This document shows, in pieces, positions 40,467 through 60,428 of a stretch of 64,000 bases of DNA. The notes below the pieces were generated by a model that was not told the DNA's origin, did not search any database, and saw only the letters and a list, made by a program, of their open reading frames with translations. Made by a program: the position numbers and the translations under genes. Within the stretch, counting starts at the first letter, position 1, and every line of letters begins with the position of its first letter. Source of the stretch: Bacillus cereus (lineage in GTDB: Bacteria > Bacillota > Bacilli > Bacillales > Bacillaceae_G). The stretch lies in assembly GCF_002584535.1 (NCBI RefSeq), contig NZ_NUOT01000044.1, forward strand, positions 58,328-122,327, in the 5' to 3' direction.

Positions 40467-41495
40467 ATGATTCGTGTGGCAATTAATGGATTTGGACGTA
40501 TTGGGAGAATGGTATTTCGTCAAGCAATAAAAGAAAGCGCATTCGAAATTGTAGCAATCAACGCAAGCTATCCATCAGAAACATTAGCGCATTTAATCAA
40601 GTATGATACAGTTCATGGCAAGTTTGACGGAACAGTAGAAGCATTTGAAGATCATTTATTAGTGGATGGGAAAATGATTCGCCTTCTAAACAACCGCGAT
40701 CCAAAAGAATTGCCTTGGAAAGACTTAGGTGTTGAAGTTGTAATCGAAGCAACGGGTAAATTTAATGCAAAAGAAAAAGCGATTCTTCACGTAGAAGCTG
40801 GGGCGAAGAAGGTTATTTTAACGGCACCTGGTAAAAATGAAGATATAACAGTTGTAGTTGGTGTAAACGAAGAACAATTAGATATTACAAAACATACTGT
40901 TATTTCAAATGCATCTTGTACAACAAACTGTTTAGCGCCTGTTGTTAAGGTGTTAGATGAACAGTTCGGAATTGAAAACGGTTTAATGACAACTGTTCAC
41001 GCTTATACAAATGACCAAAAAAATATTGATAACCCACATAAAGATTTACGAAGAGCACGTGCTTGTGGACAGTCTATTATTCCTACAACAACAGGTGCTG
41101 CGAAAGCATTAGCGAAAGTTCTTCCGCACTTAAATGGAAAACTTCACGGAATGGCACTTCGCGTTCCAACACCAAACGTGTCTCTTGTTGATTTAGTAGT
41201 AGATGTAAAACGTGATGTAACAGTTGAAGAAATTAATGAAGCGTTTAAAACTGTTGCAAACGGTGCGCTGAAAGGAATTGTAGAGTTCAGCGAAGAACCT
41301 CTTGTTTCTATTGATTTTAATACAAATACACATTCTGCTATCATTGATGGCCTATCTACAATGGTAATGGGAGAGCGTAAAGTTAAAGTGCTTGCTTGGT
41401 ATGATAACGAGTGGGGTTACTCTCGCCGTGTTGTAGATCTTGTGAAGTTAGTTGTCACTGAACTAGCAAAACAAGAAAATGTACAACACATTTAA
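40467..41495 (+). CDS. gapB: Glyceraldehyde-3-phosphate dehydrogenase, gluconeogenic (NADP-preferring) type
   Basis: A 342-residue GAPDH. Catalytic Cys151 is in SNASCTTNC and the Rossmann motif is NGFGRIGR. The residue following the second strand that selects NAD (Asp in NDLTD of GapA) is absent: the sequence reads INASYPS, as in the NADP-preferring gluconeogenic GapB. It works in the 1,3-bisphosphoglycerate to glyceraldehyde-3-phosphate direction. Ribosome binding site caaggggg. Own promoter and terminator. Confidence 0.96.
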   Translation: MIRVAINGFGRIGRMVFRQAIKESAFEIVAINASYPSETLAHLIKYDTVHGKFDGTVEAFEDHLLVDGKMIRLLNNRDPKELPWKDLGVEVVIEATGKFNAKEKAILHVEAGAKKVILTAPGKNEDITVVVGVNEEQLDITKHTVISNASCTTNCLAPVVKVLDEQFGIENGLMTTVHAYTNDQKNIDNPHKDLRRARACGQSIIPTTTGAAKALAKVLPHLNGKLHGMALRVPTPNVSLVDLVVDVKRDVTVEEINEAFKTVANGALKGIVEFSEEPLVSIDFNTNTHSAIIDGLSTMVMGERKVKVLAWYDNEWGYSRRVVDLVKLVVTELAKQENVQHI

Positions 41496-41502
41496 TGATA
41501 GA

Positions 41503-41537
41503 AAAGGAGGCAAGCGATTGCTTGTCTTCTTTTTTTG
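41503..41537 (+). terminator. Terminator of gapB
   Basis: Arms gaaaaggaggcaagc / gcttgtcttctttttttt, one mismatch, ending in T-run. Confidence 0.85.
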
Positions 41538-41688: not shown

Positions 41689-41717
41689 TTGCAAAATGAA
41701 AATAAACAAAGTATACT
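41689..41717 (+). promoter_or_regulatory. Strong promoter of the speD leader
   Basis: TTGCAA and TATACT with the ideal 17-bp spacing. Predicted transcription start near 41724, giving a leader of about 150 nt before speD. Confidence 0.75.
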
Positions 41718-41723
41718 AACACT

Positions 41724-41873
41724 CGTAAACTTAAGAGCTGAGGTACGTAGTCACTACTTAAAGGGTTAGGACCTCTCTGGACTAACTTTCCCCCGTGGTA
41801 GTGGAGCAAGCCAAATTGCAAATTAGTTTTCAATTCGAACAGTTAGATTAAATTTACAAGGGGGAACTGTAGA
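41724..41873 (+). promoter_or_regulatory. Structured speD leader, candidate cis-regulatory RNA of unknown family
   Basis: Helix P1: cactac (41752-41757) with gtagtg (41798-41803). Nested helix P2: gttag (41765-41769) with ctaac (41782-41786), extended by aaa (41760-41762) with ttt (41787-41789), loop gacctctctgga. A possible pseudoknot pairs gaggt (41740-41744) with acctc (41771-41775) in the P2 loop. The 3' portion carries ccccc and later the speD site gggggaa, which could pair. No T-box, SAM, preQ1 or guanidine consensus recognised. Regulation by polyamine or SAM would be logical but is inference. Confidence 0.5.
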
Positions 41874-42266
41874 ATGGATACTATGGACACGATGGGCCGT
41901 CACGTAATCGCTGAACTTTGGGATTGCGATTTTGACAAGCTTAATGATATGCCGTTTATTGAACAATTATTTGTGGATGCAGCACTAAGAGCAGGTGCTG
42001 AAGTACGTGAGGTTGCTTTTCATAAGTTTGCACCGCAGGGTGTAAGTGGAGTGGTAATCATTTCGGAATCACACTTAACAATTCATAGCTTTCCAGAGCA
42101 CGGTTATGCAAGTATTGATGTTTATACTTGTGGGGATCGTATTGATCCAAATGTTGCTGCAGAGTATATTGCAGAAGGTTTAAATGCGAAAACGCGAGAG
42201 AGCATCGAGCTTCCTCGAGGCACAGGTAGCTTCGAAATTAAGCATAGAGAAACAAAAGCTCTTTAA
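41874..42266 (+). CDS. speD: S-adenosylmethionine decarboxylase proenzyme
   Basis: A 130-residue bacterial class 1B AdoMetDC. It supplies decarboxylated SAM for spermidine synthesis. The proenzyme cleaves itself between Glu65 and Ser66 ([14 protein letters not shown]), turning Ser66 into the pyruvoyl group; His71 (HSFPEHG) and Cys86 (VYTCGD) complete the active site. ATG at 41874 is nine bases after ggggg; the ATG at 41883 is also possible because B. subtilis SpeD starts at the equivalent MDTMGRHV. Confidence 0.96.
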
Positions 42267-42292: not shown

Positions 42293-42321
42293 AAAGAGGT
42301 GTATAATGCACCTCTTTTTTT
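42293..42321 (+). terminator. Terminator of speD
   Basis: Arms aaagaggtg / cacctcttt, then T-run. Confidence 0.9.
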
Positions 42322-46659: not shown

Positions 46660-46920
46660 AATGAAATATATTGAAATGTCACGATGAGGACAAGAGTAAT
46701 TTGCTACGATTCTCAGAGAGGGAAGCCTTAGGGTGTGAGCTTCCTAGTACGAGTTTATTACTTACCACCTCTAAACTTTAGCAGTGAACGTTTTTCTAGT
46801 AATTGCTAACGGTCAACACCGTTATGTTGTACTTGAGCAATTAACAATTTGGTTAATTGAAACAAGGGTGGAACCACGAATTCAACACTCGTCCCTTTTT
46901 ACGGGATGAGTGTTTTTTAT
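46660..46920 (+). promoter_or_regulatory. T-box riboswitch upstream of thrS (threonine)
   Basis: The T-box core AGGGTGGAACCACG is at 46865-46878. The specifier loop of stem I carries ACC (46764-46766), the threonine codon. The terminator helix is cactcgtccc / gggatgagtg at 46887-46912 followed by T-run. Uncharged tRNA-Thr pairs with the specifier and T-box to stabilise the antiterminator and switch on thrS. Confidence 0.96.
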
Positions 46921-49079: not shown

Positions 49080-49200
49080 TTTGTAGAACAAGTAGAAGCA
49101 CCCGCTTCTCACCTGATTGACGCATATGCAGTTAGCAGGTAAATGTCTTTCTTACTTAAGATCGTACAAGTGTGGGTGTTCGTATGCCCACACTTTTTTG
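49080..49200 (+). promoter_or_regulatory. L20 leader (ribosomal protein autoregulation) with terminator
   Basis: The sequence from agaagcacccgcttctcacc to the perfect hairpin aagtgtggg / cccacactt plus six T (49168-49199) matches the L20 leader of Bacillus, which attenuates infC-rpmI-rplT when excess L20 binds. The pattern gaagcacccgcttctcacc and caggtaaatgt is characteristic. Recognised from memory. Confidence 0.93.
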
Positions 49201-49254
49201 TTTGGGTTCTACGACTACAAACGTATTCTAAGAAAACCTTGGAGGTGGCTTACT

Positions 49255-60161: not shown

Positions 60162-60180
60162 ATAATAAAAGTAAAATAAT

Positions 60181-60428
60181 GAAAAACGTTGATAGAGAAG
60201 AGTAGCTTGCAAAATCGCCATATAGGGAGAGAGTGCCGTAGACTGAAAGCATTCTTATGGTAGACGGAAGTGAATTCACCTCTGGAGTTGACGCCAGGAC
60301 CATTGATATGTAAAGGCGTTCCGGTCAAAGCTGACCGTTATAACAATTAAGTGGGCAGACTTGTTCTGTCAATTTAGGGTGGTACCGCGAATTTACCTCG
60401 TCCCTTTTTGGGAGCGAGGTTTTTTTAT
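60181..60428 (+). promoter_or_regulatory. T-box riboswitch upstream of pheST (phenylalanine)
   Basis: T-box core AGGGTGGTACCGCG at 60376-60389. The specifier loop holds TTC (60275-60277), a phenylalanine codon. The terminator is acctcgtccc / gggagcgaggt at 60395-60421 with T-run. Uncharged tRNA-Phe turns on pheS and pheT. Confidence 0.96.

Follow-up and report, generated by a model that had tools for sequence, protein, structure and literature searches.

What role does the leader of approximately 150 nucleotides (nt) between promoter and coding sequence play in the expression of speD? The question touches a subject that is largely open, the sensing of polyamines in bacteria. The RNA described here precedes the enzyme that commits S-adenosylmethionine (SAM) to polyamines and is also present in close relatives of Bacillus subtilis, so that feedback on the pathway could be put to a direct test in a model organism. 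In the window, by which we mean the whole stretch of 64,000 nucleotides that was analysed, speD occupies positions 41874-42266 of the forward strand, starts with the ATG at 41874 and encodes 130 aa that we take, from knowledge of the protein family, to be the S-adenosylmethionine decarboxylase proenzyme SpeD. The gene upstream (40467-41495) is presumably gapB on the same ground. A sigma-A-type promoter, TTGCAA-17-TATACT (41689-41717, forward strand), places the predicted transcript start at about 41724. The original prediction called this promoter near-ideal; it is indeed present, but is better described as good, with 9 of 12 consensus positions matched, and a TATA(A/C)T box with TTG at the -35 distance recurs in 78 of 81 speD leaders. 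Given this promoter of its own, and given that gapB and speD each end in a terminator-like hairpin (41500-41535 and 42293-42317, respectively), speD looks like a single-gene transcript. Between promoter and speD the window leader contains no terminator-like site, and a transcription attenuator was rejected for the window because it lacks an intrinsic terminator there.

Our comparisons show that the speD-leader finding is real and larger than first described, and we are nearly certain that the leader harbors a conserved, structured RNA dedicated to speD. Among close SpeD relatives (the best 80 of 577 loci, which together with the window give 81 leaders), a core of 37 bases, AAAGGGUUAGGACCUCnnnGGACUAACUUUCCCCCGU (41760-41796, forward strand), is found in 81/81 speD leaders at no more than 5 edits and in 15 versions. 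The core is exact outside three loop bases (written n) in 73 of the 81, but in only 1 of the 30 divergent leaders L148-L177. At one Ectobacillus antri locus, SpeD is 94% identical to the SpeD of the window. A covariance model of helix P1 and the core, termed R1, finds one strong copy per genome in 30 genomes, two of which have one more marginal match. Among sampled genomes, R1 matches 191 of 398 from the class, 92 of 261 from one order and 9 of 398 from across the phylum, with one match each. A weak match to the core model was seen in one genome of the phylum-wide sample (G983, C1:456702-456760, E 2.8e-5), and when we looked for other genes bearing this RNA, the extra matches to R1, or to the model R2 introduced below, were marginal (G011, E 0.043; G026, E 0.061; G174, E 0.005).

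The tie of this RNA to speD is equally close. We fetched 97 loci found with R1 (L081-L177), comprising 30 from the class, 27 from the order, 30 from genomes picked by eye for weak E-values in the class sample, and ten re-finds (L081-L090) that are the same places as ten loci of the SpeD-relative set. In 97/97 of these loci, 10 being re-finds, speD lies directly downstream of the RNA, and the distance from the 3′ strand of P1 to the SpeD match is 47-85 bases throughout, at SpeD identities down to 39%. We also took 40 genomes listed among the 207 of the class and the 169 of the order without an R1 match; at E<=1e-6, SpeD is present in 13 of them and absent from the other 27. At these 13 speD loci, seven (L182-L186, L188 and L189) carry a related leader that R1 missed, L187 is an apparently degenerate member, at three (L179-L181) speD directly follows another reading frame, in what was judged by eye to be an operon, and two (L178 and L190) have no recognisable leader upstream of speD. 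When 59 genomes of one family were searched both ways, the RNA was present in 50 of 50 genomes with SpeD, 9 of which had supplied leaders for building R2, and in 0 of 9 without SpeD. Two genomes, G1054 and G1062, have a second speD match, yet one leader RNA match each.

The two nested helices foreseen in the original prediction, CACTAC/GTAGTG and GTTAG/CTAAC in DNA letters, were recovered on the forward strand. The outer one, P1, pairs CACUAC (41752-41757) with GUAGUG (41798-41803), and the inner one, P2, pairs GUUAG (41765-41769), a strand invariant in the close set, with CUAAC (41782-41786). Covariation argues for P1. In the close set of 58 distinct sequences, two-sided changes occur at 5 of 6 P1 pairs, and 26 cells are changed on both sides versus 5.8 in shuffles. 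The alignment behind this count works against P1, since L008, L043 and L069 are misregistered by one base in the P1 3′ strand. When divergent members are included, 107 cells are changed on both sides versus 40.5 in shuffles, in an alignment that was fitted to the model and is hence biased towards it. We also placed 113 distinct P1 flanks on a SpeD protein tree, with column histories re-thrown on the tree as the null. Here, P1 pairs 3, 4 and 5 covary (p = 0.002, 0.002 and 0.018, respectively), pair 1 is borderline (p 0.07), and pairs 2, 6, 7 and 8 do not reach significance by G. Across pairs 1-5, 14 branches of the tree carry a joint compensatory change. For four leaders in this test (L154, L166, L170 and L171), the P1 register was adjusted manually onto the evident complement, which favours P1 there. 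Pairs 2-7 are paired at a mean of 86% in register versus 21-36% in slid registers. The original prediction had staked itself on covariation across orthologous leaders, and P1 covaries, also on the tree.

P2 varies far less. In the close set it shows no variation except one change from C-G to U-G, and with divergent members one pair changes from U-A to G-C in 4 sequences and is unpaired in 4 others. The P2 loop, GACCUCnnnGGA (41770-41781, forward strand), may form tandem G-A pairs. In L063 an A-to-G and a G-to-A change occur together at these presumed pairs, a joint exchange that is consistent with a non-canonical pair. In L159 and L160 the variable part of the P2 loop is enlarged by an insertion of approximately 50 bases, while the remaining core and an outer domain, described below, stay recognisable. 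Other candidate elements did not hold. A pseudoknot between GAGGT (41740-41744) and ACCTC (41771-41775) had been suggested and was dropped: the letters are present, but of the 81 leaders only that of the window has GAGGT or GAGGC within 60 nt upstream. The transcript has a conserved 5′ end, GUAAACUUAA (41725-41734, forward strand; GUGAACUUCU in many relatives), which could form a long-range helix, P0, with the bases before the Shine-Dalgarno (SD) sequence at 41848-41857. The P0 duplex is weakly suggestive, with p<=0.05 in 33 of 66 leaders, and was rejected for the window, where p is 0.535. Folding energy, computed for pseudoknot-free forms, was set aside as evidence for structure, as the window leader gives no signal by energy alone (z +0.81 against shuffles, with 160 of 200 shuffles folding as well).

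The original prediction further held that a C-run, CCCCC (41790-41794, forward strand), could pair with the SD sequence of speD, and this potential recurs well beyond the window. The SD sequence, AAGGGGG (41858-41864, forward strand), lies nine bases before the ATG, and five or more consecutive G, most often as AAGGGGG, stand just before speD at 219 of 224 loci; the five loci that lack them (L178-L181 and L190) are all without the leader. SD sequences with GGGGG are not unique to speD, as in a crude scan 25 of the 379 neighbouring genes and 9 of the 53 window ORFs are also preceded by GGGGG. We could place 217 of the 224 loci (leaving out L178-L181, L187, L190 and L222), which yield 169 distinct leaders. 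In 169/169 of these, which are related and so do not count as 169 independent trials, the strongest partner of the SD sequence lies in the apical region of P1, a region making up 34% of the stretch searched. This position holds also for leaders whose inner sequence does not resemble the Bacillus core. The partner reads CCCCC, CCCUC or CCCCU, and in L185 and L188, where the SD region is GAGGGG, it reads CUCCUC. L184 is a weak case, at -5.8 kcal/mol. This positional test is stronger than a dinucleotide-shuffle test of the same pairing, which gives p<=0.05 in 52% of 186 leaders and is weak because dinucleotide shuffles preserve C-runs. As neither partner changes much, covariation between the two is low.

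The C-run has a second partner closer at hand. When the hairpin is folded in isolation, the C-run is paired locally in 153 of 169 leaders, whereas minimum-energy folds of the whole leader place it on the SD sequence in 91, locally in 62 and elsewhere in 16 (n=169). The window leader displays both arrangements, with the C-run on the SD sequence in the whole-leader fold and paired with GGG (41763-41765, forward strand), a putative anti-anti-SD segment, in the isolated hairpin. Two near-balanced and mutually exclusive computed folds, together with the lack of a terminator, point to control of translation initiation. It is likely that the RNA works by hiding and exposing the SD sequence of speD. 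In the mechanism we propose, the P1 hairpin, with the conserved P2 core as its cap in Bacillus, would carry the C-rich anti-SD segment. With speD on, this segment would pair inside the hairpin with the nearby G-run and leave the SD sequence free; with speD off, it would pair with the G-rich SD sequence beyond the hairpin and hide it. Conservation, the link to speD, P1 covariation, SD/anti-SD complementarity and the two competing folds are all computed observations, and from them we infer that the folds interconvert in cells.

What would tip the balance between the two folds is presumably a ligand. Judging from the gene association and the architecture of the RNA, a small molecule probably drives the switch; on the same ground, and more tentatively, we suggest spermidine or decarboxylated SAM as the ligand, with repression as its effect. 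In the favoured form of the mechanism, either product of the pathway would stabilise the state in which the SD sequence is hidden, and thereby exert feedback on speD. The leader has what riboswitches have in general, a conserved and covarying structured domain upstream of a metabolic gene. On balance, we regard it as a probable case of an undescribed and widespread cis-regulatory RNA that controls speD translation, most likely a riboswitch. If this reading is true, Rfam 15 has no entry for a highly conserved regulatory RNA from a bacterial group that is among those best studied for riboswitches.

Searches for known RNA families agree with the original prediction that the leader fits no known riboswitch family. 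With the 4227 models of Rfam 15 at gathering score, no match to the speD leader was obtained in the window, in 8 relatives or at the 13 speD loci without an R1 match, and short leader stretches from the window and from Bacillus tequilensis gave nothing beyond noise at E<=10. Weak hits to caiA, ST7-OT4_2, cHP, psbNH and TB10Cs1H1 were rejected as far under their gathering scores, and hits to RNase P and Bacillaceae-1 in L188 as lying outside the speD leader. The SAM-I (S-box) model RF00162 matches the window neither at gathering score nor at E<=10, and the Bacillus tequilensis leader not at E<=10. The known SAM riboswitch classes, SAM-I to SAM-VI and SAM/SAH, would sense a related metabolite, and the compact ones among them also hide the SD sequence, but the speD-leader RNA matches none in Rfam. 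Among translational riboswitches, preQ1-II, SAM-II and the SMK box are compact and pair aptamer bases with the SD sequence. The speD-leader RNA is like them in that a loop segment pairs with a downstream SD sequence across a hairpin; it differs in sequence and helices, in the long variable spacer before the SD sequence and in its association with speD only.

The nearest system in biological terms is the published spermidine riboswitch. This four-stem SAM-I variant was described from 13 examples and precedes polyamine-synthesis genes in Oceanobacillus, Bacillus, Lysinibacillus and others (PMC10853860). The passages of that report on the class describe an off switch, and call the evidence for earlier claimed polyamine riboswitches unconvincing (PMC10853860). 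As described in these passages, both RNAs stand before polyamine-synthesis genes including speD in Gram-positive bacteria, and feedback on polyamine synthesis, the logic of the spermidine riboswitch, is also the logic we propose here. The spermidine riboswitch, however, is there described as controlling transcription termination with a SAM-I architecture, whereas the speD-leader RNA has a different fold, no terminator and no match to RF00162. Likewise, 13 examples are given in that account, versus 191 of 398 genomes sampled from one class for the speD-leader RNA. The speD-leader RNA is thus not the published spermidine riboswitch.

More distant leaders suggest that the RNA is built from two parts. 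In divergent leaders, an outer domain, UAGGAACCAGGAUUCAC ... GUGAAUGACGYAGGUCCUAGC ... GCUAGGAAGGGGG, surrounds the P1 hairpin. By a loose pattern, this domain is present in 26 of 30 leaders of L148-L177, in 7 of 7 placed leaders of L182-L189 and in 32 of 32 placed leaders of L191-L223, and is rare elsewhere, with a single case among 81 Bacillaceae-type leaders and none among the 67 of L081-L147. A model of this outer, or sister, form, R2, matches 111 of 148 genomes of one family. We call the outer-domain leaders Paenibacillus-like from the look of their sequences. Leaders of the Paenibacillus type lack the Bacillus core and have the outer domain instead; in L191-L219 the outer domain is kept and the inner loop is different; and in some lineages of L148-L171 the outer domain coexists with a close version of the Bacillus core. 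The outer helix, P1b, shows almost no covariation within its own group, because it is nearly invariant there. L187 and L222 are high-GC leaders that resemble degenerate outer-domain members and contain a strong GGGGAGCUGCUCCCC hairpin.

The RNA would then have two separable domains, an inner core in Bacillus and an outer domain in the Paenibacillus-like forms, with both in some lineages, and the sensing part may have moved in evolution while the SD switch stayed. It is conceivable, though we advance it with some reserve, that such an RNA with two separable domains represents a new and widespread riboswitch class for a metabolite of the polyamine pathway. Decarboxylated SAM would then have its first known natural sensor, or else spermidine would have a second class, unrelated to the SAM-I variant and far commoner.

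Other readings of the same switch differ in what works it. A protein could do so at the level of translation, for example SpeD binding its own leader. All fetched RNA matches precede speD, and the joint presence and absence of RNA and SpeD in one family is the pattern of autogenous control. However, the core or the outer domain remains recognisable before SpeD homologues near 40% identity, so that a protein partner would have needed to preserve its contact with the leader throughout this divergence, and we know of no RNA-binding role for the SpeD enzyme family. We consider a protein switch unlikely.

An improbable variant of the ligand model would have SAM itself as an activating signal, stabilising the P1 hairpin with the C-run in its local pairing, freeing the SD sequence and turning speD on. 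The local pairing of the C-run in the isolated hairpin of 153/169 leaders would suit such a switch, as would the finding that only speD, whose product consumes SAM, occurs with this RNA. End-product repression is the commoner logic, which argues the other way, and the RNA has no resemblance to any SAM family of Rfam. The published spermidine riboswitch is moreover described as an off switch (PMC10853860). A switch that a pathway product turns off, as outlined above, remains the reading that we prefer to activation by SAM.

The leader might also be a fixed structure that senses no signal and serves in RNA stability, in docking of Hfq or sRNA or in constitutive tuning of the SpeD level. Pairing with SD regions is what one may expect of a C-run, and an RNA from the leader of the same gene in B. 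subtilis co-purifies with Hfq as a 79-nt peak at 2966841-2966919, listed as unknown or speD leader region (PMC3574147, Table 2). The passages of that study on speD give no motif, structure, phylogeny or mechanism (PMC3574147). According to the same source, aptamers account for nearly all peaks on leaders known to respond to signals, several uncharacterised leaders in the table co-purify like known riboswitches, and structured RNAs may, as its authors suggest, simply resist degradation and associate nonspecifically (PMC3574147). With its aptamer-bound peaks, this experiment by others also counts in favour of the riboswitch reading. A core that is exact outside three loop bases in 73/81 leaders exceeds the needs of constant tuning, as do two near-balanced folds, and we therefore hold a fixed leader to be doubtful. 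In the open-licence PMC literature, to which our search was directed, no speD motif or riboswitch appeared beyond the Hfq table, and the relevant passages of PMC4448311 and PMC5519356 have no bearing on the speD leader.

Finally, it is very improbable that the leader encodes a ribosome-stalling regulatory peptide with the core frame LLKGLGP-x-x-TNFPPW-stop: although the frame through the core is open in 81/81 leaders, some ORF overlaps the core in 36/81, and several species, including the B. subtilis group, have an in-frame upstream GTG or TTG and a peptide ending in PPW, the upstream starts are spread over the frames (28 in the core frame, 32 in the next and 8 in the other, of 81), which shows no preference for the core frame, the window has no upstream start in that frame, the loop of L053 and L057 is one base shorter, and P1 varies by compensatory base change. 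Leader-peptide attenuation or an arrest peptide is disfavoured accordingly, as no frame with a start codon is conserved. In leaders of the B. subtilis group, such as L019, a frame opening with GTG close to where transcription is predicted to begin encodes VNFLLETVSELLKGLGPLRTNFPPW-stop; this frame with its start is not conserved across the 81 leaders.

Two further observations concern other RNA families. In three genomes with speD behind another reading frame (L224-L226), we examined the fetched upstream sequence for SAM-I-like elements. L224 and L225 have no such match in the 4-5 kb fetched, and L226 has one at 1340-1461, approximately 2.8 kb upstream of speD, scoring 42.8 bits versus a gathering score of 44.4 bits. 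This match possibly belongs to the published class of spermidine riboswitches and, as a sample of one, would be in keeping with two different RNAs serving the same task. Elsewhere in the window, two T-box leaders (46672-46899 and 60180-60408) are found at gathering score with 107.6 and 115.2 bits, respectively, and a ribosomal protein L20 leader lies at 49084-49205 with 87.9 bits.
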